A stretch of 64,000 bases of DNA from Chryseobacterium sp. (GTDB lineage Bacteria > Bacteroidota > Bacteroidia > Flavobacteriales > Weeksellaceae), in assembly GCF_019236175.1 (NCBI RefSeq), contig NZ_JAFAJM010000006.1, forward strand, positions 1-64,000, in the 5' to 3' direction. Below are positions 25,137 through 54,802 of this stretch, piece by piece. The notes under the pieces were generated by a model. The model did no database searches and was not told the origin of the DNA. It was given only the letters and a program-made list of their open reading frames with translations. How positions within the stretch are numbered: the first letter of the stretch is position 1; every line of letters begins with the position of its first letter. Made by a program: the position numbers and the translations under genes.

Positions 25137-28100
25137 ATGCATCGTTTTTTTATATTTTTATATTATCTTATTTCCAGAAACAAAATCCTTTCTGTATTTA
25201 TTGCATTAGGGATCGCTGTAATGTGTATCTTTTTTGCTTCAAAAATCAACTTTGAAGAGGATATCAATCAGATCATTCCCAAAAATGAAAAATCTGATCT
25301 TACAGCAAAAGTTCTCAAACAGTTAAACTTCTCAGACAAGATTATTGTTATCATACAGAACAAATCCGGTGATGACAGCTTTCAGCTTTCTGAAACAGCG
25401 GACTCCTTCCTGCAAAAGATTGAGCCTTTGAAAAAATACATCGGTTCTGTACAGGGAAAGGTAAATGATAATGAAATTTCCGAAACGTTTGATTTTGTCA
25501 ATCAAAACCTGCCTTTATTCCTGAATGAAAATGATTATAAAGAAATTGAAAGAAAACTTCAGAAGGACAGCATTGCCCAACAGGTAGAAAATAATTATAT
25601 TTCTCTGGTCTCACCAACGAGTCTTGTCACTAAAAATTTCATCAAAAAAGATCCTCTTGGATTAACTTTTCTGGGAATAAAAAAACTGAATGCCCTCAAC
25701 ATCAGTAAAGACTTCAAACTTGAAGACAGCTATATTGTTACCAAAGACGGAAAAAATCTATTATTATTTATAGACCCTAAAAATAAAAGTAATGATACCA
25801 AATCTAATGAGGCTTTTATTGACGGATTAAATTTAATAAAAGAGAACATCAACAAAGAGTTCAGAGGCAAAACAGAAATCAGTTATTTCGGTTCCCCTGT
25901 AATTGCTGTGGCCAATGCCAAACAGATCAAGAAAGATATTCAGAATACGGTAGTCATCTCCATGACCGTTCTGTTAATCTTACTGATTTATTATTTCAGG
26001 AATTTCTTCACACCTGTGATCGTTTTTCTTCCTACTGTATTTTCCGTTTTACTGGCTTTACTGATTCTATATTTCATTAAAGATAAAATCTCAGCAATCT
26101 CATTAAGTGTAGGAGCCATTCTTATCGGAATTACTATTGATTATGCCCTGCATATTCTTACTCATTATAAGCACAATAACAATATTGAAGAACTTTATAA
26201 AGAGATTACCCAACCAATTGTTTTAAGCAGTGCTACTACTGCGGTTTCTTTTCTCTGCCTGGTTTTTGTACGCTCTGAAGCATTAAAAGATCTGGGGCTT
26301 TTTGCAGCCATTACCGTGATTTTATCTTCTGTCACAGCATTGATTATTGTTCCGCAGCTCTATAAACCTAAGGAAACAAGTGAAAAACACAGCACAAATT
26401 TCATTGATAGGATCGGCTCTTATCCCTACGAAAAAAACAAACCCCTGATTATTGGCTGTTCTGTAATTATTCTGGCCTGTTTATTTGGATTCAGACATGT
26501 AAAATTCAACGAAGACATCGGGGACCTGAACTACATTCCGAAAGAATTAAAACTCAGCGAAGCTAAGCTACAAAAGCTTTCAGATATCACATCCAAGTCT
26601 ATCTATACTATTTCTTACGGAAATTCTGAAGAAGAAGCTCTAACCAGAAATTCACAACTGACAGATTTTCTTGAAAAAGAAAAGAAAGAAGGGAAAATAT
26701 TAAGTTATAATTCCATCGGAAGTATTGTGCTTTCTGAAAAAGATCAGCAAAAGAAAATTAATGAATGGAAGGCTTTTTGGGATACCCATAAAAAACAACA
26801 GACCATTTCCGAGCTTATCACCAATGGAAACAAGTTCGGATTCAACAGCGCAGCTTTTGATAATTTCAATGATGTTCTGAATAAAAATTATTCCGCGTTA
26901 CCGCTGAAAGACTACAAAAAAGTAAAAGCTCTGCAGATTTCTGAGTTTCTGAGTAATGAAAACGGTTTTTACACAGTATCCAATGTCGTGAAGGTGGATG
27001 AAACAAAAAGAGATTCCTTTATCAAAGACATTGAAAAGAAACATGATGCAATTGCTATCGACCGTCAGCAAATGAATGAAAACTTTCTGGGATTACTGAA
27101 AAGAGATTTTAATACACTGATTAATTATTCTCTGCTGGCTATCATTTTAACAATTATTGTCTTCTTCAGAAACTTTGAACTGACTGTACTGACTATGTTT
27201 CCCATAGTATTAACGGGAGTTGTAACAGCAGGGATTTTATATTTCCTGGGGCTAGAACTCAACATCTTCAGTACGGTAGTCTGTACATTAGTCTTCGGGG
27301 TAGGTGATGACTTCAGTATTTTCCTGACTCAGGCAATGCAAAAAGAACACACTTCCGGTAAAAACGAACTTCCTACCTATAGAATTTCAATTATCCTGGC
27401 TGTTTTCACCACCATTCTTTCCATCGGCTCTTTGATCTTTGCCAGACATCCTGCTCTCCATTCTTTAGCATTGGTGGCTCTGATCGGAATGTTCTCGGTA
27501 ATCATCATTACCTCAACATTATACCCGTTCTGGTTTAGGCTACTGATTACAAACAGAGCAAAAAAAGGACTCTCCCCGATTACCTTCAGGTTGCTTGCCA
27601 ATTCACTTCTTTCATTTTTATATTACGGAGTGGGAGGCTTTTTATTTTCAGCGTTCGGAAGCTTCTTTGTTAAAAATTCCAGGGGTAGAACACTCAATAT
27701 TATTAAACTGATTCTTGCAAAATTTTTAACCTCGGTATTGTATTCAAATCCTTTCGTTAAGAAAAGGATTATCATAAATCCGGAAGAAGACTTCAGCAAA
27801 CCTGCCGTTATCATTGCCAATCATACGTCATTTCTGGATACATTAGCTATTGCAATGACGACTCATAAAATCATCTATCTGGTCAACGACTGGGTATATC
27901 AATCCCCTATTTTCGGGAAACTGGTAAGAGCACTGGGATTCTTTCCTGTATCTCAGGGTATTGAAAACGGGATGGATAAACTGAAAGAAAAAGTGGCACA
28001 AGGCTACTCACTTGTTGTTTTTCCTGAAGCAGAACGATCTTACACCAATGACATTAAAAGGTTTCACAAGGGAGCATTCTATCTTGCAGAACAATTTAAT

Positions 28101-28790
28101 CTGGATATTCTTCCTATTTATATTCACGGAAACTCTGAGGTATTACCCAAAGGAGATTTTATTATTTACGATGGAAGCATTACGGTAAAAATAGGCGACA
28201 GAATTAGTAAAGACGATATCAGCTTCGGAAAAAATTATTCTGAAAGAACAAAAAAAATCAATGCCTATTTCAGAGATGAGTTTGCCCGACTACGTGAAAC
28301 GCTTGAAGATGAAAATTATTTTAAAAAGAAACTGTTTTTAAGTTATTTATACAAAAACAGTGATGTGGTAAAAGAAGTAAAAGAAGATTTCAACACCCAT
28401 AAATCTGTCTACTTCGAACTGAATAAACATATTCCCAAAGATGCTAACATTCTTCATATTGCCAATGATTTCGGGCAGAAAGATGCTCTTCTGACTCTTT
28501 ATCAGGCAGGCAGAAGAATATTCAGCATTATTAAAGATGACGAGAAAAGAGAAACCGCAGCACACAGTTATCTGGTTAAAAAAAGAAAACTGCATTATAT
28601 TAAAGACTTTACGGAAGTGAATAAAGACATTGATGTACTTATTATTTCAGATCCGGACTTCAACATGAATGACATCCGGATTTCACCTGACACCATCATT
28701 TTTGTTAATACTCAAAATACTCCGTTGTTAAGCCAAAACCATTCATTAAAATTCAGTTCTGAATCATTAAAAGTATTTAAAGTCTCATAA
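25137..28790 (+). CDS. MMPL transporter / acyltransferase / methyltransferase-like fusion
   Basis: The 1217-residue protein joins three parts. Residues 1-820 form an RND/MMPL exporter with two sets of membrane helices (about 10-420 and 665-810). Residues 870-1040 form a lysophospholipid acyltransferase domain with NHTSFLD (near 895) and PEAERS (near 961). Residues about 1090-1215 look like a Rossmann methyltransferase, but the glycine-rich SAM loop is degraded (HIANDFGQKDA). The same three-part layout is annotated as trifunctional in other flexirubin clusters. The likely role is export and membrane anchoring of the pigment. It heads the locus behind a strong promoter. Confidence 0.9.
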   Translation: MHRFFIFLYYLISRNKILSVFIALGIAVMCIFFASKINFEEDINQIIPKNEKSDLTAKVLKQLNFSDKIIVIIQNKSGDDSFQLSETADSFLQKIEPLKKYIGSVQGKVNDNEISETFDFVNQNLPLFLNENDYKEIERKLQKDSIAQQVENNYISLVSPTSLVTKNFIKKDPLGLTFLGIKKLNALNISKDFKLEDSYIVTKDGKNLLLFIDPKNKSNDTKSNEAFIDGLNLIKENINKEFRGKTEISYFGSPVIAVANAKQIKKDIQNTVVISMTVLLILLIYYFRNFFTPVIVFLPTVFSVLLALLILYFIKDKISAISLSVGAILIGITIDYALHILTHYKHNNNIEELYKEITQPIVLSSATTAVSFLCLVFVRSEALKDLGLFAAITVILSSVTALIIVPQLYKPKETSEKHSTNFIDRIGSYPYEKNKPLIIGCSVIILACLFGFRHVKFNEDIGDLNYIPKELKLSEAKLQKLSDITSKSIYTISYGNSEEEALTRNSQLTDFLEKEKKEGKILSYNSIGSIVLSEKDQQKKINEWKAFWDTHKKQQTISELITNGNKFGFNSAAFDNFNDVLNKNYSALPLKDYKKVKALQISEFLSNENGFYTVSNVVKVDETKRDSFIKDIEKKHDAIAIDRQQMNENFLGLLKRDFNTLINYSLLAIILTIIVFFRNFELTVLTMFPIVLTGVVTAGILYFLGLELNIFSTVVCTLVFGVGDDFSIFLTQAMQKEHTSGKNELPTYRISIILAVFTTILSIGSLIFARHPALHSLALVALIGMFSVIIITSTLYPFWFRLLITNRAKKGLSPITFRLLANSLLSFLYYGVGGFLFSAFGSFFVKNSRGRTLNIIKLILAKFLTSVLYSNPFVKKRIIINPEEDFSKPAVIIANHTSFLDTLAIAMTTHKIIYLVNDWVYQSPIFGKLVRALGFFPVSQGIENGMDKLKEKVAQGYSLVVFPEAERSYTNDIKRFHKGAFYLAEQFNLDILPIYIHGNSEVLPKGDFIIYDGSITVKIGDRISKDDISFGKNYSERTKKINAYFRDEFARLRETLEDENYFKKKLFLSYLYKNSDVVKEVKEDFNTHKSVYFELNKHIPKDANILHIANDFGQKDALLTLYQAGRRIFSIIKDDEKRETAAHSYLVKKRKLHYIKDFTEVNKDIDVLIISDPDFNMNDIRISPDTIIFVNTQNTPLLSQNHSLKFSSESLKVFKVS

Positions 28791-28832: not shown

Positions 28833-29747
28833 ATGAAAAAAAATATACTTGTCATATACTATTCTCAGACCGGTCAACTGGAGGAGATTGTACGAAACAT
28901 CGCCAAGCCTTTTGAAGCCAAAAAGGAAGAATATGATATCACCTATTATAATATACAGCTAAAGGAAGACTTTCCTTTTCCCTGGCCGGGAGATGTTTTT
29001 TTCAACACTTTTCCGGAATCTTATCTACAGATTCCAAAAGAAATTCTGCCACCATCAGAAGAAGTACTGAATAAAAAGTATGATCTCATTCTGTTTGGAT
29101 ATCAGGTATGGTATCTCACACCATCCATCCCTATCATCTCCTTTCTGAAAAGTGGCTATGCAGAGAATATCCTGAGAGACACTCCGGTTGTAACCATTTC
29201 AGGAACCAGAAATATGTGGATGCTTTCTCAGGAAAAACTGAAAGTATATTTAAAGGATCTTAAAGCAAAACTTGTAGGAAATATAGCACTGGTAGACAGA
29301 CATGACAATTACACCAGTGTGCTGACTATTTTACGGTGGCTGACCACGGGACAGAAAGAAAAATCAGGGATGCTTCCTGCTGCCGGTATTTCGGATGAAG
29401 AAATTACAGGCTCTGTAAAATATGGGAAAATCATTGAGAACCACTTTAGAAATAACGACCTGGGGCAGCTACAGCCGGATCTTGTTAAAAACGGAGCCAT
29501 AGAAATTCGCCCGTTCCTGGTGCGGGTTGAGAAGGTTGGAAATAAAATTTTCACCGTGTGGTCTAATCTGATTATAAAGAAAAAAGAAAAACGCCCATTG
29601 CTAATAAAATTCTTTAAGGTATATTTGATGGCTGCGATATGGATTATCTCACCTGTCGTGTTGGTTTTGCACCTCCTTACAACCCCTATATTTTGGTTTA
29701 AAAGACAAAAGCAAAAAAGATATTTACAAGGAATTAATTTAAAATAG
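28833..29747 (+). CDS. darA: Dialkylresorcinol condensing enzyme DarA
   Basis: DarA acts with DarB in making the dialkylresorcinol half of flexirubins, joining and aromatising two beta-ketoacyl units. The N-terminus has a flavodoxin-like nucleotide-binding start (ILVIYYSQTGQLEEIV), then an FGYQVWYLTPSIPIISFLKS segment, with a C-terminal pair of hydrophobic segments near 265-290 suggesting membrane attachment. Length (304) matches proteins annotated DarA in Flavobacteriia. It is followed after 1 base by darB, with which it is always paired. Confidence 0.82.
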   Translation: MKKNILVIYYSQTGQLEEIVRNIAKPFEAKKEEYDITYYNIQLKEDFPFPWPGDVFFNTFPESYLQIPKEILPPSEEVLNKKYDLILFGYQVWYLTPSIPIISFLKSGYAENILRDTPVVTISGTRNMWMLSQEKLKVYLKDLKAKLVGNIALVDRHDNYTSVLTILRWLTTGQKEKSGMLPAAGISDEEITGSVKYGKIIENHFRNNDLGQLQPDLVKNGAIEIRPFLVRVEKVGNKIFTVWSNLIIKKKEKRPLLIKFFKVYLMAAIWIISPVVLVLHLLTTPIFWFKRQKQKRYLQGINLK

Positions 29748-29748
29748 A

Positions 29749-30888
29749 ATGTACGACGTATTTATAACAAAAGCATCAAAGTTCTTACCTAATGAGCCGG
29801 TATCGAATGATGAAATGGAAACTTATCTCGGGCTGATCAATGATGCGCGATCTAAAGCGAAATCACTTATTTTAAGAAATAATAAAATCACCACAAGATA
29901 TTACGCTCTGGATAAAGAAGGAAACCCTACGCATACCAATGCGCAGCTTACCGCAAAAGCAATTGAAGGACTTTTTGACGAAAATTTCAAAAAGGAAGAT
30001 ATGAAATTATTATCTGTAGGAACTACTTCTCCGGACCAGATTCAGCCTTCCCATGCCTCCATGGTTCATGGTGAGCTGAACATTGGAAAATCTATTGAGA
30101 TCAATACCTCAACAGGTCTTTGCAATTCCGGAATGAATGCACTTAATTACGGTTTCCTTTCTGTAAAAGCCGGTGTACAGCAAAATGCAGTATGTGCCGG
30201 CTCCGAAAGAATGTCTGCATGGATGACTGCAGACAAATTTAATCACGAAGCCGAAAATCTAATATTACTGGAAGAAAGACCTATCATTGCATTCAAAAGA
30301 GAATTCCTAAGATGGATGCTTTCTGACGGCGCAGGTTCTTTTCTGTTAGAAAATAAACCCAGAGAAAACAGCACTTCTTTAAGAATTGAATTTATAGATT
30401 TTTATTCTTATGCTCACGAAATCGAGGCATGTATGTATGCAGGATGCGAAAAACAGGAAGACGGAAGTCTAAAATCATGGGCAGATTACCCTTCAGATGA
30501 ATGGCTGAAGCAATCAATCTTCGCAATAAAACAGGACACTAAAATTCTGGATAAATACATTCTGGTAAAAGGTGCTGAAAGCTTAAGAGCTTCTTTTGAC
30601 AAGCATCAGCTGGATCCTGACAAAATAGACCATGTACTGGCCCATATTTCTTCCGGTTATTTTAAAGATGGACTGAAAGAAGAATTTGCTAAAAAAGGAA
30701 TGGACTTTCCTGCGGAGAAATGGTTCTATAACCTTTCTGACGTTGGAAATATTGGTGCAGGTTCTATTTTTGTTGCTTTGGAGGAACTGATGAATTCCGG
30801 AACATTAAAAAAAGGAGAAAAAGTGCTTCTTTGTGTTCCTGAAAGCGGAAGATTTGCCTATTCTTGTGCATTATTAACTGTCTGCTAA
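29749..30888 (+). CDS. darB: KAS III-type ketosynthase DarB
   Basis: DarB condenses beta-ketoacyl thioesters for dialkylresorcinol synthesis. It has the thiolase-fold layout of FabH with Cys125 (in TGLCNSG), His299 (in VLAHISSG) and Asn334 (in DVGNIGAG), the full Cys-His-Asn triad. Length (379) is somewhat over that of FabH. It starts 1 base after the darA stop and its stop overlaps the next start by one base (TAATG), so it is part of one translated unit with the neighbouring hotdog genes. Confidence 0.88.
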   Translation: MYDVFITKASKFLPNEPVSNDEMETYLGLINDARSKAKSLILRNNKITTRYYALDKEGNPTHTNAQLTAKAIEGLFDENFKKEDMKLLSVGTTSPDQIQPSHASMVHGELNIGKSIEINTSTGLCNSGMNALNYGFLSVKAGVQQNAVCAGSERMSAWMTADKFNHEAENLILLEERPIIAFKREFLRWMLSDGAGSFLLENKPRENSTSLRIEFIDFYSYAHEIEACMYAGCEKQEDGSLKSWADYPSDEWLKQSIFAIKQDTKILDKYILVKGAESLRASFDKHQLDPDKIDHVLAHISSGYFKDGLKEEFAKKGMDFPAEKWFYNLSDVGNIGAGSIFVALEELMNSGTLKKGEKVLLCVPESGRFAYSCALLTVC

Positions 30889-32139: not shown

Positions 32140-35052
32140 TTAGTATCCGAAGATCTCTTCAAGAGACACCTCCTGGAACTCACCCATTTTATGAATAGAT
32201 TCCATATTCAGATTTTCTTTCTTTCCGATAATTGCCGTATTGTATTGTACAGGTTTTACTTCAGTATTGTAAAATCCTGTAAGCTGAGGCAATGTCAGAC
32301 CCTGAATTTCCGCGTAGGTATCCTTTCTGATATCATAATCAATTCCTAGCTTTTTCAGCGCCAGCTGGCTAAAGAAAATATTCGTTCTGTTGATTCTGTT
32401 CGAAGCAATTTGTTTTAATGCGGAACCTTTCGCATTTTCAAACTGTGCCGGAATTTGTGGCAATTCTTCCATCAAATCATTCATCGCAGTTACCGCCTGC
32501 GGAAGTTTATTAGACTGCGTTCCTATATAATTGGTAATATAATTGGCAAGTCCTTTTTCCGAAGCATTAGCATAAGAGACATAAGCAGTATAAGCCAGAG
32601 ATTTACTTTCTCTGATTTCCTGAAAAACAATAGAGGAAAGCCCCCTTCCGAAGTATTCATTGAAAACGTTGGCTTTTCCGAAATTACTAAGATTCACCGT
32701 ACTTCCTTTTGCTACTTTAGACATCTCCATCTGTACCATATCATAATTCGTAAAGTATACTTTTCCTATGGTAGCAGGCTCTGTATATACTTTAGCTTTT
32801 GCAGGCTGAAGGCTTGTATTAACGATATAAGGTTTCACTGCTTTTTCCAATCCTGCCTGATCTTGTCCGTAAAGAAGGATCTGGTAAGGATATTGGGTTA
32901 ATGTTTTTGCCTTTTTCATCAGTTCGGCAACATCAATCTTTTCAAGACGGTCTTTAGAAACAATATCCGTCATTCTTGAATCTTTACCATACTTAGCATA
33001 ATTAGTAAGAGCGGCCATGATTTTTGTTTTATCCTTTTTAGCAACAGCTCTTGCCTCTAAAATAGTCTTCACCGTTTGATCATAAACCGCTTTATCGGCT
33101 TTTACATTTGTCATCCAGTGGTTCATAAGCTCTACCCCTTTTTTCATATTGCTTTCAAGACCTGTTAAAGTAATAACCATCTGATCATTGGTAGTTCTGA
33201 TGTTGGTGGTGATCCCAAGTTTATAGAATTCTTCCTTCAACTGTTCCGGTGTGTATTTATCTGTCCCAAGATATCCGAAAAGAGTTCCTGCAATAGAAAG
33301 CTCTTTATCATTGTCTGTTCCAAAAGGGAAAATATAGCTTACCTGTGCAACTTCGTTATATTTATTTTTTACAAAGCTTACCGTCTTATCTTTGATCTGA
33401 GAAGTCTGGATTGCTGTTTTATAATCTACAAACTCAGGTTTGATCTCTGCAACTTTTGTATTTAGAATATCTTTCAGGAAAGGAGACTGAGCCTCTCTGT
33501 TTAATTTAATCGGTGTAATCCCGGGGTTTTCTACACGGACAAGCTTATCATTCACCCCTTTCTCTTTATAAACGACTACATAATTATCTTTAAAAAAATC
33601 GTTGGCAAATTTCACAACATCTGTTTTTGTGATCTTCTCATACTGATTAATATCATCAAGCTCCTGTTCCCAAGTTCTTCCCTTGATATAAGCACCATAA
33701 AGCTCTGTAGCCAGCCCGTCTGCCGTTTCCCAGCCTTTCATACGCTGAACCTTCTTATCATTAACGATCGCCTTAAGCATCCAGTCCGGAAATTGTCCTT
33801 TTTTCACAAGATCCAGCTGATCCATCAATAGTTTTTGGGCTTCATCAAAACTCTGCCCTTCTTTAGGAGTAACTACCAGAGCAAACATTCCGTACATTTT
33901 AAACGGAGATTCATAAGCGCCCGCTCCAAGGGTCTTTTGTTTCTGATTGATATTAAGGTCAATTAATCCCGCATCTCCCCTGTTGCTTAAAATTTCAGAA
34001 ACGATGTCTGCCAGTCTTGCTTCCTGACTTCCGTAAGAATCTGTTCTCCAGGCCATGGTCATTCTTGGTGTAGAAGGACTTTTTACAGTTCTGGAGACAA
34101 TCTTAGTCATCGGTTCTTCTGTCACCATCTTCTTCATAGGAAGCTCTTTGTATTTGAAAGAACCGAAATATTGATCAACTAATTTTATAGTTTTGTCAAA
34201 ATCAAGATCACCTACCATTACAACGGCCATATTATTAGGAACGTAATAGGTATCAAAATATTTATGGATTGCAACCATTGAAGGGCTTTTTAAGTGCTCC
34301 GAAGTTCCGATAGTTGTTTGCTGTCCGTTCGGGTGCTTAGGGAAAAGAGCTTCCATTAATGCATAATTAACCAGGCGTCCGTCATTATCCTGCGCTCTGT
34401 TATATTCTTCATATACTGCTTCAAGCTCTGTATGGAAAAGGCGTAATACCAGTTCTGAAAAACGCTCTTTCTCTATCTTAAGCCATTTTTCGAGCTCATT
34501 GGATGGAATATTATTTTTATAAACTGTTTCATCCAGCCAGGTATGAGCATTCGTTCCCGTAGCTCCTAATGAAGAAATTACTTTATCATATTCATTAGCA
34601 ATCGCATATTTCGAAGCTTCCTGAGAAACCTCATCGATTTTTTTATAAAGATCTTTCTTTTTAGCAGGGTCTTTTTCAGCCTTGTGTTGTTCATAAAGAT
34701 CAGAGATCTGTTGCAGCAAAGCCTTTTCCTTTACCCAATCCTGGGTTCCCAAATGCGAGGTTCCTTTAAAAATCATATGTTCCAGATAGTGGGCCAGCCC
34801 TGTATTATCACTTGGGTCATTATTTGACCCTGTCCTTACAGGAATATAGGTCTGGATTCTCGGAGCATCCTCATTTTTTGCAAGGTATACTTTCAGTCCG
34901 TTTTTCAGCGTATACACTCTTACACCGGCCTGATCATTCTTTACCGTTTCATAGTTGTATCCCTGAGCATCCGTCAGCTTTTGGGTATCGAATTTCTGGG
35001 CCATTGCACTCAGCATACAGAAAAGCGAAACAGAAATAAAAAACTTCTTCAT
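32140..35052 (-). CDS. M16-family zinc metallopeptidase, two-domain
   Basis: This secreted protease has a signal peptide (MKKFFISVSLFCMLSAMAQ) and the inverted zinc motif HYLEH at residues 88-92, with a downstream ELEAVYEEYNR segment supplying the third ligand. The 970 residues hold two M16 halves; the second half (from about 530) lacks an HxxEH and is presumably structural. It probably degrades peptides in the periplasm. It points against the flexirubin genes on both sides and shows no link to pigment synthesis. Confidence 0.92.
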   Translation of the reverse strand: MKKFFISVSLFCMLSAMAQKFDTQKLTDAQGYNYETVKNDQAGVRVYTLKNGLKVYLAKNEDAPRIQTYIPVRTGSNNDPSDNTGLAHYLEHMIFKGTSHLGTQDWVKEKALLQQISDLYEQHKAEKDPAKKKDLYKKIDEVSQEASKYAIANEYDKVISSLGATGTNAHTWLDETVYKNNIPSNELEKWLKIEKERFSELVLRLFHTELEAVYEEYNRAQDNDGRLVNYALMEALFPKHPNGQQTTIGTSEHLKSPSMVAIHKYFDTYYVPNNMAVVMVGDLDFDKTIKLVDQYFGSFKYKELPMKKMVTEEPMTKIVSRTVKSPSTPRMTMAWRTDSYGSQEARLADIVSEILSNRGDAGLIDLNINQKQKTLGAGAYESPFKMYGMFALVVTPKEGQSFDEAQKLLMDQLDLVKKGQFPDWMLKAIVNDKKVQRMKGWETADGLATELYGAYIKGRTWEQELDDINQYEKITKTDVVKFANDFFKDNYVVVYKEKGVNDKLVRVENPGITPIKLNREAQSPFLKDILNTKVAEIKPEFVDYKTAIQTSQIKDKTVSFVKNKYNEVAQVSYIFPFGTDNDKELSIAGTLFGYLGTDKYTPEQLKEEFYKLGITTNIRTTNDQMVITLTGLESNMKKGVELMNHWMTNVKADKAVYDQTVKTILEARAVAKKDKTKIMAALTNYAKYGKDSRMTDIVSKDRLEKIDVAELMKKAKTLTQYPYQILLYGQDQAGLEKAVKPYIVNTSLQPAKAKVYTEPATIGKVYFTNYDMVQMEMSKVAKGSTVNLSNFGKANVFNEYFGRGLSSIVFQEIRESKSLAYTAYVSYANASEKGLANYITNYIGTQSNKLPQAVTAMNDLMEELPQIPAQFENAKGSALKQIASNRINRTNIFFSQLALKKLGIDYDIRKDTYAEIQGLTLPQLTGFYNTEVKPVQYNTAIIGKKENLNMESIHKMGEFQEVSLEEIFGY

Positions 35053-35500: not shown

Positions 35501-35905
35501 ATGAAAAAACAAGACCTACCTCAAGACGAAAGCAATCTTAAATCCGCCAATATGACGGAGGTTCTGTATGTAACGGATGAAAATGACAATTATACTACCG
35601 CCAACAGCACAGGCTGGGATGCAAAGAAAGCGGCTTTGGATGAATCCATGGAGCTTATTCATGAAAGAATTCAGGATGCAAAACAAAATGTAGCCAATAA
35701 TATAGCCAGTCCGATCGTTTATTTTATGGAACTGAATAAAATGGACCTGCCTGTTCTTGCTTCATACGTAGGGATGTGGCAATGGAGAGTGAAAAGACAC
35801 TTTAAACCCGGAAAATTTAAAACACTAAGTGAAACAACACTGAAAAAATATGCCGATGCATTTGGAATTTCAGTAGATGAATTAAAAAACTTCGATGGAA
35901 AATAA
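35501..35905 (+). CDS. Small XRE-like helix-turn-helix protein
   Basis: The 134-residue protein has an unstructured acidic N-terminus and a C-terminal helical domain, LASYVGMWQWRVKRHFKP...LKKYADAFGISVDELKNF, which follows the Cro/C1 (XRE) pattern. It is probably a DNA-binding regulator, perhaps of this locus. It is the first gene of the second plus-strand block and lies 45 bases upstream of the BtrH-like gene. Two inverted repeats flank it (35432-35459 and 35906-35922), which would fit autoregulation, but binding is not shown. Confidence 0.68.
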   Translation: MKKQDLPQDESNLKSANMTEVLYVTDENDNYTTANSTGWDAKKAALDESMELIHERIQDAKQNVANNIASPIVYFMELNKMDLPVLASYVGMWQWRVKRHFKPGKFKTLSETTLKKYADAFGISVDELKNFDGK

Positions 35906-35950: not shown

Positions 35951-36946
35951 ATGAAATTAAACTTTGAACACCATCAGACTGCACATTGCGAAAACGGTGT
36001 TGCCTCTAATCTACTGCTTAATAAAGGACTCAAACTAAGCGAACCTATGATTTTCGGAATCGGTTCCGGATTGTTTTTTGTATATCTTCCTTTTTTAAAA
36101 GTGAATTTTGCCCCCGGTTTCAGCTATCGCCCGATGCCCGGCGCTATTTTTAGCAAAGCAGCCAAAAGATTAGGAATTAAAATAAAAAGAGAAAAATTTT
36201 CAAATCCTAAAGATGCCCAAAAAGCCCTGGAAAGAAATCTTGAGCAAAATATTCCTACAGGATTACAGGTAGGAGTTTTTAATCTGACCTATTTTCCGGA
36301 AGAATATAAATTCCATTTTAATGCCCACAATCTTGTTGTTTATGGGAAAGAAGAAGGAAATTTTTTAATCAGTGATCCGGTAATGGACTATGTCACTTCT
36401 CTTTCAGAATCGGAATTGGAAAAAGTAAGATATGCTAAAGGAGCACTTCCTCCGAAAGGACATATGTATTATCCTATTTATGTTCCCGAAAATATCAATC
36501 TGGAAGAAGCCATTAAAAAAGGAATTAAAGATACCTGTAAAAATATGCTGGCTCCTGTACCTCTTATCGGAGTTAAAGCCATGAGATGGGTAGCCAGAAG
36601 TATCCCGAAATGGGCTGAAAAAAAAGGTTCCAAAGTGACCAATCATTATCTGGGCCAGCTGATCAGAATGCAGGAAGAAATAGGAACCGGAGGCGGAGGA
36701 TTCAGGTTTATCTATGGCGCATTTCTTCAGGAAGCTTCTGTCATCCTTAAAAACGACCAGTTAAAAGAGCTTTCAAAAGAGATTACAGCCATCGGAGATC
36801 TTTGGAGAGATTTTGCCGTGGATATTGCCAGAGTATATAAAAACAGAAACTCAAAAAGCAATATTTATCAGGAACTTTCAAAAACAATGCTTCATATAGC
36901 CGATCTGGAAGAAGCTTTCTATAAAAAACTGAGAAATGCAATCTGA
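35951..36946 (+). CDS. BtrH N-terminal domain protein (putative acyl-ACP transferase)
   Basis: The first 140 residues follow the BtrH_N family: HHQTAHCENGVASNLL with the Cys expected as nucleophile (Cys13), IFGIGSGLFFVY, and FNAHNLVVYG with a His. Butirosin BtrH transfers an acyl group from an ACP onto an acceptor. In this locus the same chemistry could join the aryl polyene acyl-ACP to an acceptor such as dialkylresorcinol; that is an inference. The remaining ~190 residues are helical with no assigned fold. It overlaps the ABC ATPase start by 11 bases. Confidence 0.75.
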   Translation: MKLNFEHHQTAHCENGVASNLLLNKGLKLSEPMIFGIGSGLFFVYLPFLKVNFAPGFSYRPMPGAIFSKAAKRLGIKIKREKFSNPKDAQKALERNLEQNIPTGLQVGVFNLTYFPEEYKFHFNAHNLVVYGKEEGNFLISDPVMDYVTSLSESELEKVRYAKGALPPKGHMYYPIYVPENINLEEAIKKGIKDTCKNMLAPVPLIGVKAMRWVARSIPKWAEKKGSKVTNHYLGQLIRMQEEIGTGGGGFRFIYGAFLQEASVILKNDQLKELSKEITAIGDLWRDFAVDIARVYKNRNSKSNIYQELSKTMLHIADLEEAFYKKLRNAI

Positions 36947-37706
36947 TATGACGGACACGATGATTGAGGTTAAAAATTTATATAAAAAATACAAAAATTC
37001 TGATGAGTTTTCTGTAAATGATATCTCCTTGACTATTGATAAAAATGAGATCTACGGAATTCTCGGTCCCAACGGCGCAGGAAAAACCACACTGATTTCT
37101 ATGCTCTCCGGATTAATCAAGCCTACTTCAGGGCAGTTTAAGATCAATGGTATGTCTCCACAAAAAGATCATTTCAAAATCAGGCAGATCATTGGCATTG
37201 TTCCTCAGGAATATGCTCTGTATCCTACCCTTACCGCCCGGGAAAATCTCATGTTTTTCGGAAGTTTATATGGCTTAAAACACAGAACACTAAAAAAAGC
37301 AATCGATGAGTCTCTGGAAATCATGGGTCTTTCAAAATTCGCAGATAAGCAGGTAGGTCAGTTTTCCGGAGGAATGAAACGCCGTTGCAACCTTATCGCC
37401 GGAACGCTTCACAATCCTAAAGTTTTATTTTTGGATGAGCCTACCGTAGGCGTAGATGTCCAGTCAAAGAAAGTGATTATTGATTTTTTACAGGAACTGA
37501 ATAAAAACGGTACCTGTATTATTTATACCTCTCACCACCTTTCTGAAGCGGAAGAATTCTGTACCAAAATCGCTATTATCGACAGAGGAAGAATTCATGC
37601 TGTGGGAACTCCTGAAGAGCTCGTAGCTCAGATTGCCCATGCTGAAAACCTTGAGGATGTTTTCATTTCATTAACCGGAAAAGAACTAAGAGATGTTGTT
37701 GTATAA
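36936..37706 (+). CDS. ABC transporter ATP-binding protein
   Basis: The nucleotide-binding subunit of an ABC exporter, with Walker A GPNGAGKTT, Q-loop VPQEYALYP, signature FSGGMKRR, Walker B VLFLDEPTVGVD and H-loop His in TSHHLSEAEE. Length 256 is standard. The start at 36936 overlaps the previous gene; Met at 36948 or 36960 would be alternatives. It overlaps the permease gene by 14 bases and must form the transporter with it. Confidence 0.93.
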   Translation: MQSDMTDTMIEVKNLYKKYKNSDEFSVNDISLTIDKNEIYGILGPNGAGKTTLISMLSGLIKPTSGQFKINGMSPQKDHFKIRQIIGIVPQEYALYPTLTARENLMFFGSLYGLKHRTLKKAIDESLEIMGLSKFADKQVGQFSGGMKRRCNLIAGTLHNPKVLFLDEPTVGVDVQSKKVIIDFLQELNKNGTCIIYTSHHLSEAEEFCTKIAIIDRGRIHAVGTPEELVAQIAHAENLEDVFISLTGKELRDVVV

Positions 37707-38961
37707 ACTGTGGAGAAGTTTTGTTAAAGAAATTCTTCTTCTGAAAAGAGATATCGGAGGAATCGTCATCATTTTCGTGATGCCCCTACTTTTGATTGTC
37801 ACCATTACCCTGATTCAGGATTCTACTTTTAAAAACCTTGAAGGTTCAAAAATCCCTATTATCTTCATTGACAATGATCAATCAGAGGTTTCAAAAAATA
37901 TAAAAGGTGAGCTGGAAAACAGCAAAACCTTCCAGCTGCTCACCAATTTCAATGAGAAATCAGCTCAGAAAGCGGTGTTTGCCGGAGATTATCAAATGGC
38001 TATCGTTATTCCTGAGCATCTTACCCAGGATTTAAATTCAAATATTGATTCAAAAGTTCAGGCCATCGTCAGTTCTTTTGGGCTTGAAAGTGATTCAACG
38101 GCCACTAAAAAGCCGGTTTCCAAGACCAAAGAGATTCATTTGTATTTTGACCCGGCCACCAATGCCGGATTCAAAAATTCTGTGATGAACTCTGTCAACA
38201 AAATGGTTTTTGAAATCGAAAATAAAAAGATTTACAAAGCATTTCAGGATCAGCTCGGAACTACAGAAAATCTTGATGAAAATAAAAACCTGATCAGCTT
38301 TAAAGAGATTAGCCCTAAAAAAGGGACCATGGATGTCATTCCAAACTCTGTTCAGCATAATGTTCCGGCCTGGACATTATTTGCCATCTTCTTCATTGTA
38401 GTTCCTTTATCTATTAACCTTGTCAAAGAAAAAAGCCAGGGAACGAGTGTAAGGGCAAGAATAAGTCCTACTCCGTATTTTGTACATATTTTAGGAAAAA
38501 CATGTACCTATCTTATCATTTGTATCATTCAGTTTTTACTGATGGTTGCAGTAGGCGTTTATCTTTTTCCTTATATGGATCTTCCGGCATTTGATGTTTC
38601 CGGAAAAATGGCTCAGCTGCTTACGGTAACCTTATTTGCAGGACTTGCAGCCATAGGCTTTGGAGTTTTACTGGGAACTATTGCAGATACCCAGGAACAG
38701 TCTGCTCCTTTTGGAGCCACTTCTGTAGTGGTATTAGCCGCTATCGGAGGAATTTGGGTGCCTGTATTTCTGATGCCCGAATTTATGCAGACCGTAGCAA
38801 AATTCTCTCCCATGAACTGGGGACTGAATGCTTATTACGACATTATTTTAAGAAATAGCGGAATCGGCGGAATTGCCAAAGAACTGGCATTTTTGCTTCT
38901 ATTCTATATAGCTACCGTATCCATTTCTATTTTTTACGAAAGAAAACTCCACAACGTTTAA
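37693..38961 (+). CDS. ABC-2 type transporter permease
   Basis: The membrane subunit partner of the preceding ATPase. It has one helix near residues 18-38, a large extracytoplasmic domain (about 40-210), then five helices from about 228 to the end, which is the ABC-2 DrrB/YhgE-like layout. It probably exports the pigment, a precursor or a lipid. It is followed 5 bases later by a thioesterase gene. Confidence 0.9.
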   Translation: MLLYKLWRSFVKEILLLKRDIGGIVIIFVMPLLLIVTITLIQDSTFKNLEGSKIPIIFIDNDQSEVSKNIKGELENSKTFQLLTNFNEKSAQKAVFAGDYQMAIVIPEHLTQDLNSNIDSKVQAIVSSFGLESDSTATKKPVSKTKEIHLYFDPATNAGFKNSVMNSVNKMVFEIENKKIYKAFQDQLGTTENLDENKNLISFKEISPKKGTMDVIPNSVQHNVPAWTLFAIFFIVVPLSINLVKEKSQGTSVRARISPTPYFVHILGKTCTYLIICIIQFLLMVAVGVYLFPYMDLPAFDVSGKMAQLLTVTLFAGLAAIGFGVLLGTIADTQEQSAPFGATSVVVLAAIGGIWVPVFLMPEFMQTVAKFSPMNWGLNAYYDIILRNSGIGGIAKELAFLLLFYIATVSISIFYERKLHNV

Positions 38962-41097: not shown

Positions 41098-41163
41098 AAA
41101 TGTAACAATATCACAATATAGCAATGCAACAATAATTGATAAACTGTTACATTGATACATTGG
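41098..41163. repeat. Inverted-repeat element, AATGTAACAAT family (copy A)
   Basis: The ends AATGTAACAATATCACAA and (as reverse complement) AATGTATCAATGTAACAG agree at 14 of 18 positions, so the element folds back on itself. It fills the gap between the short ketosynthase-like gene and the ACP gene. Two related copies occur at 53209-53296 and 54815-54910. Confidence 0.6.
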
Positions 41164-41178
41164 AAAATTAAATTAATT

Positions 41179-41436
41179 ATGGAAAACTTAAAAACTGAAT
41201 TGAAGCACAAAATTATCGATGTTCTTAATCTTGAAGATGTTTCTGTAGAGGAAATTAAAGATACGGATCCGTTATTCGGAGGCGGATTAGGCCTTGATTC
41301 CATCGATGCCCTGGAGCTTATTGTTCTTCTTGATAAAGACTACGGAATAAAATTAGCTGATCCTAAAAAAGGAAAGGAAATTTTTCAATCCATCGATACC
41401 ATGGCTGCATTCATCGAAGAAAACAGAACAAAATAA
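41179..41436 (+). CDS. Acyl carrier protein
   Basis: An 85-residue ACP carrying growing chains on a phosphopantetheine arm. The attachment Ser is Ser41 in LGLDSIDALEL. I start at 41179 (MENLKTELK), which lies after repeat A and gives a normal ACP length; the earlier Met at 41152 falls inside the repeat. It is one of two ACPs in the locus; the other is at 53323 on the minus strand, and they may serve different chains. Confidence 0.92.
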   Translation: MENLKTELKHKIIDVLNLEDVSVEEIKDTDPLFGGGLGLDSIDALELIVLLDKDYGIKLADPKKGKEIFQSIDTMAAFIEENRTK

Positions 41437-48590: not shown

Positions 48591-48956
48591 CTACTTATAC
48601 ACAACATCGGAAAACGATAAGGGGCTCATCATAATGGTCACAAATACAGCAAGGATGACCAAAGCCAGCTGTGTGGTATGGTATATTTTTTCCTTTTCAT
48701 CTTCCTTTATTTCAAAAGTAAATGCAATTTTATCCGGTCTTTTGATAATCCGCCATGTAAAAATAAGGATGGCTATATTCAGCAATACAGGCAGAAACAG
48801 GAATACTTTACTCCCATAGAGATCGGGATTATTTCCGTAACTGTGAATAGGTATTGTTTCAGGTATTGATCCGTATACCACACATAGATAAATAAAATAG
48901 CCGATAATGATTAAGACAGGAATACAGAACAGGAATTTAATATGTTTAGGAATCAT
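48591..48956 (-). CDS. DUF1648-domain small membrane protein
   Basis: The 121-residue protein has three to four hydrophobic segments and a DUF1648 signature between the first two (PETIPIHSYGNNPDLYGSKVF), as in SdpI-like proteins. Its function here is unknown. The start overlaps the stop of the C45 gene (ATGA), so it is the last gene of the minus operon. No clear terminator is seen in the 23 bases separating it from the convergent gene. Confidence 0.7.
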   Translation of the reverse strand: MIPKHIKFLFCIPVLIIIGYFIYLCVVYGSIPETIPIHSYGNNPDLYGSKVFLFLPVLLNIAILIFTWRIIKRPDKIAFTFEIKEDEKEKIYHTTQLALVILAVFVTIMMSPLSFSDVVYK

Positions 48957-50632
48957 TTCAGTTTCTTCAAAGTTTTCTTCAGATATTTTTCAACATTCTT
49001 TTGATCCGGAATTGTTGTAATTTCTTTGGATAAGGCCACCTCAAATTCAGTTTTTGCCTTTGAGTATTCTTTTCTGGAAAAATAATATTTCCCAACCAGA
49101 TAATATCCTTTCCAAAAATAAGGATTTAAAGATACATAACGGGCAAGAAATTCATCCGTGAGTACATTCTTACTGTCAATAGCATGATTTACTTTTGATT
49201 GCAGAATTCTGTATTCTTCATAGTCTTTAAATTCCCGGGTATCTACAAAAGGATCTCTGGCAATATTGAGTTCAGGTTTCGAAAAATCATGTGACAAAAT
49301 TCCATCTGAAAAGATTGTATTCAGATCATAGCATACAAATTCGCCCAGCTGATAAGGATTGGAGGAAACCCAGACCAGTTTTTTCTGTGGTGAAAATATA
49401 ACGGCATGGTGTGCCAGTAGCTGATTCAGTGCTTTTTCATTTCCGTACCCTATTTCTTTATCTTTTAATCCTGAGCGGTTTCTTAAAATGGAAGCCATCT
49501 TTTCAGGAGTCAGCTTCGGGTTTTCCTGTAAAAGTTCCTGTAACTTTTCGTAGCGGTATTCCGAGTGGCTTTCCTCAATATGCCTCTGATTTCTTTTATC
49601 CTCTTTATAAGGCTCAGACTGGAAGTGATTGGTACAAACTACCTGCGCCGTATTCTGTACACGATAGACTCCGAAATTCTTAGGAGACACTTCAATGAGC
49701 ACTGCACTTTTATCATGGGCACTCCCCACCAATATAGATTCGGAAACAAAAACTTTCCTTTTCCGGGCTATTGTAATCGCTTCTTCAATATTTTTAGCAT
49801 ATTGAAGAATTTCTCTTGTAACCAGAGAAATAGGAGTTTTTGCCGTTAAAGGAATCTTTGACTTTCCTGCATTGATTGTCACGGTGACTCCTTCTTTATT
49901 CATCCCCGAAACTACCCCGATCATTCCAGGCCAGCTTACTGACATATAAGGGATACCATCTTCAGGCACTACAAATTCCACCAGTTTATTTTTAGCAAAG
50001 TCATCTCCCACATAAAAATCGAAGTTTCTTCCGATCAGAAGATCCCCGTCTTCTGTATTTTCATTCCAGACAGCCAGTGAAGAACATCCTACTATGGCAA
50101 GGTCCTGCAAGGCATGTCCTATATCATGAGCCCCATGGAGATAGAGGTTTCTTAAATATTTAGGTGCAATAAAATCATACTGGTCTGAAGAATACTGTGA
50201 CAACCCATATAATTCTGCCTGATAATCCTCACGTATATTAAGATACATTTTTCTGTTGTACCATTTTAAAAAGCCTCTCAACAGTCTTTGTCTGAATTTT
50301 GAAGGAACAAAACTTTCCACTTTTGAAAAGAATATCGCTTCCTGTTTCTGCATCAGATCTTGAGTTAAAGCTCCATTATTATAGCCTAACTGCAGGGGAT
50401 TTCCTTTAATGTAGAGTTCCCAAAGCTGTTGCTTATTTTTGGTTAAATAATTTTGCTGATAGCTGAACGTAGTATCATTAATTTTTTTCACCTGTGGAAC
50501 TTGCAGGGGATATTGGCTGACTTCAGGGATATGATGAACAGACTTTGAAATTCCGCATGAAATAGGCATCAATGCAGGTAGTGAGTAAAAAAGGAGCTTT
50601 ATAAATAAAGGGTAGGTTTTAGTTTTTTTCAC
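48953..50632 (-). CDS. C45-family acyltransferase/peptidase-like protein with TPR tail
   Basis: This Ntn-hydrolase-type protein shows IVGCSSLAVWNENTEDG, where the Cys would become the N-terminal nucleophile after self-cleavage, and GRNFDFY. The relatives include acyl-CoA:6-aminopenicillanate acyltransferase. An N-terminal signal with a weak lipobox (MPISC) suggests export and lipid anchoring. The last 90 residues form one or two TPR-like helices. In this locus it could make or break an ester or amide of the pigment; this is inferred. It lies 10 bases downstream of the CrtI-like gene. Confidence 0.8.
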   Translation of the reverse strand: MKKTKTYPLFIKLLFYSLPALMPISCGISKSVHHIPEVSQYPLQVPQVKKINDTTFSYQQNYLTKNKQQLWELYIKGNPLQLGYNNGALTQDLMQKQEAIFFSKVESFVPSKFRQRLLRGFLKWYNRKMYLNIREDYQAELYGLSQYSSDQYDFIAPKYLRNLYLHGAHDIGHALQDLAIVGCSSLAVWNENTEDGDLLIGRNFDFYVGDDFAKNKLVEFVVPEDGIPYMSVSWPGMIGVVSGMNKEGVTVTINAGKSKIPLTAKTPISLVTREILQYAKNIEEAITIARKRKVFVSESILVGSAHDKSAVLIEVSPKNFGVYRVQNTAQVVCTNHFQSEPYKEDKRNQRHIEESHSEYRYEKLQELLQENPKLTPEKMASILRNRSGLKDKEIGYGNEKALNQLLAHHAVIFSPQKKLVWVSSNPYQLGEFVCYDLNTIFSDGILSHDFSKPELNIARDPFVDTREFKDYEEYRILQSKVNHAIDSKNVLTDEFLARYVSLNPYFWKGYYLVGKYYFSRKEYSKAKTEFEVALSKEITTIPDQKNVEKYLKKTLKKLK

Positions 50633-52311: not shown

Positions 52312-53196
52312 TTAATCAATATCATCCCAAAAATCAAAATAATTAAACCATTGAAACGGGTATTTTTTTACCATAGTCTCAAGATTTTGAACATAAGAAT
52401 GTAATAATCCCTGTGAATCACGATTTTTGATATTTTGAGCAATTCTGGCATACAAATGATAATGAAGGTTATTTTCTTTCATTACATACACATATACTAC
52501 AGGTACTCCTAATCTGGATGCAATAAGAAAAGGACCGGCCGGAAATTTTGCTGTTTTCCCCAACAGCTCAGCTTCAAGGTATTTTGATCCTTCAAAATAA
52601 CGGTCACCGGTAAAACAGATCAGCTCGTTATTAGCCAATGCCTGATTGATCTCAAAGATATGAGACATATCTTCTTTGACATAAATGAATTTGATATTAC
52701 TTTCTTTTACGGCAACACTTTCGAGATATTCTTTGATCACCGTAACTTCCTGATCAGTAGTCACCAGATTGATCTGGCAGTCAAAATCAATATCGGCAAA
52801 AAAATGCTCGGCAATTTCAAAATTACCAATATGAGCACTGATCAGAACCCCGCCTTTCTTTGCAGCCAAAAGGTTTCTGAGATTTTCAATACCATCGAAC
52901 TCATAGGTATATTTCTCTCTCAGCCCGGCAGAAATAGCCGTTTTGTCAATAAGAACTTTTCCAAAAGTAAAATAGCTGCTGAAGATGGAACGCCTGGCTT
53001 TCCAATAGTCATACGTAAGTCTTTTCTGAAAATAATAAAGGATATACCGGTTACTCTTTTTCTGGAACAGAACGTAATAAGTCGCAACAAAATAAAGGAC
53101 AACATATGAATTTCTGATCCCGATATTTCTAATACACCAAACGAATATTCTGTAGCCCAGAACCGTTCCTTTAGATTTACCTTTCCACTTATTCAT
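52312..53196 (-). CDS. LpxL/HtrB-type lysophospholipid acyltransferase
   Basis: A membrane-bound acyltransferase with an N-terminal hydrophobic anchor (about 20-45) and the HxxxxE catalytic motif in ISAHIGNFEIAEHFF, followed by FTGDRYFEGS and AKFPAGPFLIASRLGVPVV. These enzymes move acyl chains from ACP onto lipid acceptors. A relative (ApeD-type) is part of aryl polyene clusters. It is a candidate for attaching the pigment to a lipid. It follows the ACP gene, after repeat copy B. Confidence 0.88.
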   Translation of the reverse strand: MNKWKGKSKGTVLGYRIFVWCIRNIGIRNSYVVLYFVATYYVLFQKKSNRYILYYFQKRLTYDYWKARRSIFSSYFTFGKVLIDKTAISAGLREKYTYEFDGIENLRNLLAAKKGGVLISAHIGNFEIAEHFFADIDFDCQINLVTTDQEVTVIKEYLESVAVKESNIKFIYVKEDMSHIFEINQALANNELICFTGDRYFEGSKYLEAELLGKTAKFPAGPFLIASRLGVPVVYVYVMKENNLHYHLYARIAQNIKNRDSQGLLHSYVQNLETMVKKYPFQWFNYFDFWDDID

Positions 53197-53322: not shown

Positions 53323-53577
53323 TTAAGCGTTTTTCTCAGCAATCTTATTCTCAATAGTTGTATAGAAATCATCAAATGTTACCATTTTTTTGAAATCTGT
53401 CTCTCCTAATTTCACTCCGAAATTAGATTCGATCACAACGACCATATCAATATAATCTAAACTGTCTAAGCCTAATGTATTTTTAAGGTTAGCCTCATTG
53501 CTGATTTCATCTCCGTCTACTTCAAATTCATTGACAAGAAAATCATTAACAATGGCCACTATTTTTTCCCTTTCCAT
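53323..53577 (-). CDS. Acyl carrier protein
   Basis: An 84-residue ACP with the phosphopantetheine Ser39 in LGLDSLDYIDM. I start at 53577 (MEREKIV), 4 bases after the ketosynthase stop, which gives standard length; a Met at 53589 overlaps the ketosynthase. This ACP probably works with the KAS II-type enzyme and FabG-like reductase of the same operon. Confidence 0.92.
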   Translation of the reverse strand: MEREKIVAIVNDFLVNEFEVDGDEISNEANLKNTLGLDSLDYIDMVVVIESNFGVKLGETDFKKMVTFDDFYTTIENKIAEKNA

Positions 53578-53581
53578 GTTT

Positions 53582-54802
53582 TTAATCAAATTTTTTAACT
53601 ATTAATGCAGAATTGGTTCCCCCAAAACCAAAAGAATTCGACAAAAATACATCAATTTTTTGATTTTTTGTTTTCGAGATCAAATTTATACGTTGAGCCT
53701 CATTATCAGGGTTTTCCAGGTTAATATTCGGAGCAACAAAATCATGTTGCATCATCAGAATTGAGTAAATAACTTCACTTGCACCAGCCATCCAGCATTC
53801 ATGCCCTGTCATGGATTTGGTGGAACTTACCGGAACCTCACTTCCGAAAATTTCATAAATAGCTTTTGCTTCATTGGCATCTCCGATAGGAGTAGATGTT
53901 GCGTGAGCATTAATATAATCAATATCTGAAGCCTTTAATCCCGATTGTTTTAAAGCTCTCTCCATGGCCAAAGCGGGTCCGTCAACATTAGGGGTTGAAA
54001 TATGCCCGCCATTGGAAGAGAATCCATAGCCAATAATTTCAGCCAGAATCGGAACCCCTCTTCTTTGGGCGGATTCAAGGCTTTCGACAATCAAAGTTGC
54101 TGCTCCTCCGCTGGGAATAAGACCGTCTCTGTCTGCATCAAAAGGTCTTGATGCTTTCGCAGGCTCCTCTTCTCTGGCTGAGAAAACTCCTAATCCATCA
54201 AAACTTGCCATGGAATATTTGTTGGTTTCCTGAGCGCCGCCGCATATAATCATATCCTGAAACCCGTTCTTGATCATCATATAGGCAAGTCCTAAAGAAT
54301 GCGAACCACTTGCACATGCAGCACTGATGGTAAGATTAATTCCTTTCAGTTTAAAAATCGTAGAAAGGTTCATCGTTACCGTTGAGTTCATTGATTTAAA
54401 GATCGCTCCCGATCCCATCAATGTAGTATCTTTCTTTTCCCTTGCAATATCAATAGATTCTACCACTGCCTGGGAAACACTGTCGTTTCCATATAAAATC
54501 CCAACTTCGTGGGCGTCTAAAAAAGTTTCATCAAGATGAGCCTGTTTCAATGCATTAACGGTAGCAAGATAAGCATATTCACTTTCTTCTCCCATGCTTA
54601 CACGCTGCCGCCTGTTCAGGAGGTTTTTCAGATCCGGTTTTGGTACAACACCTGTAAGCCCTGATCTGAAACCAAATTCCTTTCTATCCTGGTCTAAAAT
54701 GATACCTGATTTTCCTTGATATAGGGATTCCCTGACCTCTTCTAAAGAAGTCCCGATGCAGGAATAAATCCCCATTCCGGTAATCACAACCCTATTTTCC
54801 AT
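53582..54802 (-). CDS. Beta-ketoacyl-ACP synthase II-type, active
   Basis: A 406-residue FabF-like enzyme (VVITGMGIYSCIGTS at the start) with Cys163 (SAACASGS), His in INAHATSTPIGD and His in MTGHECWMAGA, so the triad is complete. It sits between the ACP and the FabG-like reductase in the TAL-headed operon. It could start the polyene chain from coumaroyl-ACP or supply fatty precursors; sequence alone does not decide. Confidence 0.92.
   Translation of the reverse strand: MENRVVITGMGIYSCIGTSLEEVRESLYQGKSGIILDQDRKEFGFRSGLTGVVPKPDLKNLLNRRQRVSMGEESEYAYLATVNALKQAHLDETFLDAHEVGILYGNDSVSQAVVESIDIAREKKDTTLMGSGAIFKSMNSTVTMNLSTIFKLKGINLTISAACASGSHSLGLAYMMIKNGFQDMIICGGAQETNKYSMASFDGLGVFSAREEEPAKASRPFDADRDGLIPSGGAATLIVESLESAQRRGVPILAEIIGYGFSSNGGHISTPNVDGPALAMERALKQSGLKASDIDYINAHATSTPIGDANEAKAIYEIFGSEVPVSSTKSMTGHECWMAGASEVIYSILMMQHDFVAPNINLENPDNEAQRINLISKTKNQKIDVFLSNSFGFGGTNSALIVKKFD

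Follow-up and report, generated by a model that had tools for sequence, protein, structure and literature searches.

The flexirubin locus and its BtrH-type gene

The window analyzed here, a whole stretch of 64,000 nucleotides of Chryseobacterium sp. DNA, contains genes for both halves of a flexirubin, the aryl polyene and the dialkylresorcinol (Table 1). DarB, DarG, FlxA, LolA2, and LolB2 all score above their NCBIfam curated cut-offs, indicating a complete flexirubin locus, and the pairing of darA with darB has been published (PMC3992019). The C-terminal half of DarG reads like an XRE-type helix-turn-helix domain. The M16 peptidase gene listed in Table 1 is missing from the resorcinol block of a Flavobacterium-type genome (G056, L060).

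Table 1. Features of the flexirubin locus in the window.
Feature	Coordinates	Strand	Remarks
MMPL exporter fused to PlsC-type acyltransferase	25137..28790	+	Kept in polyene-only clusters
DarA, putative resorcinol aromatase	28833..29747	+	Assigned by co-conservation and its place next to DarB; matched by no family model
DarB, dialkylresorcinol-forming ketosynthase	29749..30888	+	NF053539, 638 bits (cut-off 550)
M16 peptidase	32140..35052	-	Within the resorcinol block, flanked by dehydratases and DarG; opposite strand
DarG	35501..35905	+	Small partner gene directly upstream of DarH; above NCBIfam cut-off
DarH	35951..36946	+	ATG start, 331 aa; BtrH_N + DUF4872 acyltransferase family; C13-H126-D142
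ABC transporter ATPase, resorcinol block	36936..37706	+	Directly after DarH
ABC-2 type permease, resorcinol block	37693..38961	+	Directly after the ABC ATPase
Acyl carrier protein	41152..41436	+	Possible polyenyl donor
C45/AAT-family protein (FlxW by gene order)	48953..50632	-	N-terminal hydrophobic segment; rival candidate
LpxL-like acyltransferase	52312..53196	-	Rival candidate; kept in polyene-only clusters
Second acyl carrier protein	53323..53589	-	Possible donor
FlxA, tyrosine ammonia-lyase (TAL)	55713..57233	-	Polyene start; NF053541, 899 bits (cut-off 700)

DarH carries a BtrH_N domain at residues 12-143 (Pfam, E = 9.6e-50) and a C-terminal DUF4872 domain at residues 155-327 (E = 1.4e-58), the domain arrangement of BtrH-type acyltransferases. 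It belongs to the NCBIfam family NF053550 (DarH_acyl), matching model positions 1-325 of 325 and scoring 506.5 bits (curated cut-off 300), and it coexists with DarA and DarB. The family and its label, "BtrH-related acyltransferase DarH", are already in NCBIfam (June 2026), so neither the gene nor the idea of an acyltransferase is new; the name carries no tested substrate, and the ester role is the argument of the present analysis. We found no published enzyme or deletion test of the role of DarH in the open-licence literature. No signal-like segment is apparent at the N-terminus.

An earlier note on this DNA had described a BtrH_N protein with a Cys13/His pair beside an ABC exporter within the locus. 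This description is confirmed: the histidine is His126, and Asp142 completes the set. The identity of DarH and its setting in a flexirubin locus are far beyond chance. The LpxL-like and C45 proteins that the same note named as rivals for the ester step are likewise both present.

Conserved residues and predicted fold of DarH

His12, Cys13, Glu14, His126, and Asp142 are invariant across 30 homologues, with identity down to 24%, in an alignment that took in BtrH relatives at 24-27% identity. An AlphaFold2 model of DarH (mean pLDDT 91.6, pTM 0.89) was compared with solved structures using Foldseek and VIA-align. The best fold match is CtaG (Z 25.0, 293 residues, rmsd 3.4), and AziU3 (Z 24) and CcbD (Z 22) also match the whole chain. 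Papain-like and C39 domains give shorter matches to the N-terminal part, mostly of 130-160 residues with Z about 12-16. The invariant residues and the matches of the modeled fold place a Cys-His-acid set in a predicted papain-like fold. The CtaG variants named in PDB titles, C11A, H128A, and D144N, correspond in residue kind and order to C13, H126, and D142 of DarH.

CtaG and CcbD were not reached when solved structures were searched by sequence with single BtrH proteins or a DarH profile, and AziU3 appeared only at E 0.2. DarH is therefore linked to its solved relatives by fold only. The significant matches of the DarH profile among solved structures were designed coiled-coils covering only the helical C-terminus.

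Comparison with known BtrH-type enzymes

BtrH acts on amino groups, and CtaG makes amides. BtrH, which has the BtrH_N domain, is described as an acyl carrier protein:aminoglycoside acyltransferase (PMC10318531). In place of an aminoglycoside acceptor, DarH has resorcinol and polyene genes beside it and would act on a phenol. Gene context speaks against an assignment as BtrH proper, the butirosin enzyme, as the neighbors are flexirubin genes.

CcbD passes an acyl group from a carrier protein through its own cysteine to an amine, by a Cys-His-Glu ping-pong mechanism, and accepts fatty acyl groups (PMC12945683); its structure has been solved together with its carrier protein. CcbD and LmbD, from lincosamide pathways, resemble DarH: the catalytic Cys19 and His131 of CcbD have a spacing of 112, and the corresponding spacing in DarH is 113. 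However, the product of CcbD is an amide, its set is Cys-His-Glu rather than Cys-His-Asp, and its identity to DarH is about 12%. CtaG, which was solved with PHBA, also differs from DarH in its pathway (closthioamide) and is 12-13% identical. Set against the amino-group acylation by BtrH and CcbD, phenolic ester formation by DarH would be a new acceptor type among the relatives compared.

Co-occurrence of DarH with the two pigment halves

DarH and DarA share exactly the same 74 of 236 Flavobacteriales genomes, with no discordant genome, but most of this match is not independent evidence, since neighbors in an operon come and go together. In a second sample, DarH scores above its cut-off in 18 of 247 Bacteroidota genomes, and all 18 have a DarB match above 390 bits, DarB being counted only at full-length matches of about 390 bits upward because loose thresholds catch related ketosynthases in every genome; the genome samples are phylogenetically uneven, and Fisher values for the co-occurrence serve only as description. 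One genome in the second sample, G237, has a DarB-like gene without DarH, and no DarA was found within the 40 kb read around that gene. FlxA was found in all DarH-bearing Bacteroidota genomes checked. Across the Bacteroidota sampled, DarH is present with both halves and absent from polyene-only genomes, which is the distribution sought for a flexirubin ester synthase. This strict co-occurrence with the resorcinol genes is shown by the analysis, as are the family of DarH, its conserved residues, and its predicted fold.

In four genomes (G117, G432, G341, and G237), the polyene cluster holds FlxA, KR, ketosynthases, ACP, LpxL-like protein, LolA2, GT, MMPL, C45 protein, and ligase, and none of DarA, DarB, DarG, DarH, or the ABC pair was found in these cluster regions. 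Immediately after the LpxL-like gene in these clusters come the dehydratase and thioesterase that, in flexirubin clusters, border the resorcinol block. The region read in a further genome, G265, lay at a contig edge, and this genome was left out of the clean polyene-only cases. G310, of the same assigned genus as G341, has a polyene cluster and, about 350 kb away, a separate DarA-DarB-DarG-DarH-ABC-ABC-ACP-KS-KS block. Together with the polyene-only clusters, this genome indicates that the genes of the resorcinol block, DarH among them, behave as a unit.

At 80 DarH loci from named genomes, DarG lies directly upstream of DarH in 79, and DarB and DarA accompany it in 56 and 51, respectively, counted within the sequence stretch around each locus (flanks up to 10 kb). 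Taibaiella-type genomes have DarG-DarH alone among housekeeping genes such as those for aminoacyl-tRNA synthetases, and in G016 DarH and DarB lie on separate contigs. In all 18 examined Bacteroidota genomes whose DarH locus lacks DarA and DarB, DarB and FlxA are encoded elsewhere in the genome. That DarH, DarB, and FlxA belong to one pathway is better supported by this retention without linkage than by linkage.

DarG stays beside DarH even where the other flexirubin genes lie elsewhere. Two genomes, G379 (L150, L151) and G443 (L152, L153), have a resorcinol block and a reduced core of polyene genes, FlxA lying some 60-70 kb off; neither C45 nor MMPL-PlsC genes were detected in them, perhaps reflecting a different export route or acyl chain.

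Alternative candidates for the ester step

For Chitinophaga pinensis, Schoner and colleagues suggested FlxW, a ligase-like enzyme, as the one that joins the two halves (PMC3992019). We found no experiment in the open-licence literature that assigns this step, for which FlxW is the published candidate. In our own letter mapping of the C. pinensis cluster by gene order (25 genes, A to Y), W is the C45/AAT protein and Y the coumarate ligase; the mapping agrees with the published account for A (ammonia-lyase), Y (ligase), ketosynthases C, I, N, and O, and the export genes (PMC3992019). Position X reads like an AcpS-type phosphopantetheinyl transferase. Acyltransferases are known among AAT-family enzymes, and FlxW might make the ester while DarH has another role; the distribution of the C45 protein nevertheless argues against this. 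It occurs in 76 of 236 Flavobacteriales genomes, a set that, relative to that of DarH, lacks G379 and G443 and adds G117, G265, G341, and G432. Among the 247 Bacteroidota it shares the same 19 genomes with the LpxL-like protein, adding G117 and G237 to the DarH set and lacking G098. The C45 protein is thus kept in all four polyene-only genomes, and also in G265, and was not detected in the both-halves genomes G379, G443, and G098. Moreover, most C45 copies begin with a hydrophobic membrane- or lipoprotein-type segment, several ending in a lipoprotein-like cysteine, which suggests placement outside the cytoplasm, away from ACP thioesters. FlxW looks like an enzyme of the polyene branch, and we regard it as improbable that it forms the ester.

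The LpxL-like protein and the PlsC domain of the MMPL fusion both come from acyl-ACP-type O-acyltransferase families, and either might make the ester. Both genes are, however, retained in polyene-only clusters. The LpxL-like protein is present in G117 and G237, which have neither DarH nor DarA, and was not found in G098, and the MMPL-PlsC protein was not detected in G379, G443, or G098; related acyltransferase genes are a general feature of polyene clusters (PMC3949708). An ester made by either protein is accordingly quite unlikely. The LpxL-like and C45 rivals of the earlier note are both weakened, as they track the polyene and stay in clusters without the resorcinol block. DarH itself might instead serve elsewhere in the resorcinol branch as an acyltransferase or thioesterase, for example in precursor off-loading or with another acyl group, given its place in the resorcinol block; in Chitinophaga and Azoarcus this block includes an ACP and ketosynthases of its own. 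Yet darA and darB alone gave the dialkylresorcinol in heterologous expression (PMC3992019), and the polyene starter enzyme FlxA accompanies DarH in every Bacteroidota genome checked. Such a role is about as doubtful as ester formation by FlxW, if anything marginally more so. A role for DarH as a C39-like peptidase working with the neighboring ABC transporter would fit the ABC genes that adjoin it, the annotation of its Azoarcus counterpart as a BtrH-like peptidase, and the resemblance of its N-terminal domain to C39 peptidase domains (131-136 residues matched at Z about 15). But the whole of DarH, including the helical C-terminal domain, matches carrier-protein acyltransferases at higher Z, and no ABC-2 permease adjoins DarGH in Taibaiella-type genomes, making a peptidase role extremely improbable.

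A proposed role for DarH

From these genome comparisons, DarH is a better candidate than the literature-proposed FlxW for joining the two flexirubin halves. The suggestion in the earlier note that this protein is a candidate for the ester bond holds up: the protein tracks the dialkylresorcinol genes (74 of 74 genomes with DarA), and its predicted fold resembles, from end to end, that of carrier-protein acyltransferases. Co-expression of darA and darB in a heterologous host yielded free resorcinol (PMC3992019). DarH is thus not needed for the resorcinol half and would act after it.

In our proposal, DarH is a BtrH-type acyltransferase of papain fold, located in the cytoplasm, and unites the two halves. 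The finished aryl-polyenyl thioester, carried by an ACP, would dock on DarH, and Cys13, through activation by His126 and orientation by Asp142, would take up the acyl group as an acyl-enzyme. His126 would then deprotonate a phenolic hydroxyl of the proposed acceptor, the dialkylresorcinol made by DarA and DarB, and attack by this hydroxyl would release the ester. The pigment would subsequently be carried toward the outer membrane, probably with the help of the adjacent ABC-2 transporter and LolA2/LolB2, for which pigment transport is only suggested in the literature (PMC11885536). In this scheme we infer the donor, the acceptor, the ester product, the ping-pong order, and the role in transport. 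Overall, we consider it likely that DarH loads the aryl-polyenyl group from the ACP onto Cys13 and passes it to the resorcinol hydroxyl.

DarH-like genes in other lineages and distant BtrH proteins

Azoarcus BH72 makes arcuflavin, a proposed polyene-resorcinol ester, and its dar operon runs darA, darB, darD, darE (BtrH-like), darF (ABC ATPase), a PHD/PilT pair, darI (permease), darC (ACP), and darJ (ketosynthase) (PMC3949708). Compared from the published gene table, the order darA-darB-small protein-BtrH-ABC ATPase, with DarE (BtrH-like peptidase, azo0290), is as in the window, and the operon as a whole follows the Chitinophaga order except for an inserted toxin-antitoxin-like pair. The names clash, as Azoarcus darH is the PilT-domain gene and not the NCBIfam DarH. 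DarG-DarH was also found in Desulfobacterota MAGs, and of four checked, three have a DarB-like gene in the genome. In at least one Desulfuromonadaceae MAG (G464), possibly incomplete, the pair occurs with no detected DarB, which weighs against the proposed role. One Desulfobulbaceae MAG has a gene for a B12-binding radical SAM protein (L139:13090-14400) with the ABC permease gene on one side and the DarB-like gene on the other, which suggests a modified, perhaps methylated, resorcinol.

Searches of plasmids returned only distant BtrH paralogues, which have no bearing on the ester. A distant BtrH_N protein on Acinetobacter plasmids accounts for 45 of 55 plasmid matches; on the one such plasmid that was read, its gene (L064:5953-6924) adjoins two PaaI thioesterase genes and genes for a P450, a ferredoxin, and a TetR regulator, a different BtrH-type setting. 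A few Bacteroidota encode a second BtrH_N paralogue with 25-29% identity to DarH (L059:9480-10382, L058:6339-7298, L167, L168), with no flexirubin-cluster neighbor except one generic reductase match. DarB-like ketosynthases occur alone on Bacteroidales plasmids, again with no bearing on the ester; on Phocaeicola and Prevotella plasmids (L066, L067) one lies beside a TetR regulator, and neither DarA nor DarH was recognised there.

Implications for flexirubin biosynthesis

DarH is a protein of a known family whose assignment to the ester step is well supported and directly testable. With somewhat less assurance, though still as the probable case, we propose that this papain-fold enzyme of the BtrH type links two separate natural-product pathways, those of aryl-polyenyl-ACP and dialkylresorcinol, through an intermolecular phenolic ester, and that it is carried with an all-or-none resorcinol block that accompanies ordinary aryl-polyene clusters in Bacteroidota and, it appears, in Desulfobacterota and Betaproteobacteria.

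Flexirubins, which are orange bacterial pigments, serve as a standard taxonomic marker for Bacteroidota. If the proposed role is correct, BtrH-type enzymes would be extended from N-acylation to O-acylation of phenols, and DarH would offer a tool for coupling polyene acids with resorcinols. It would also be a better genome marker of true flexirubins than the polyene genes alone.
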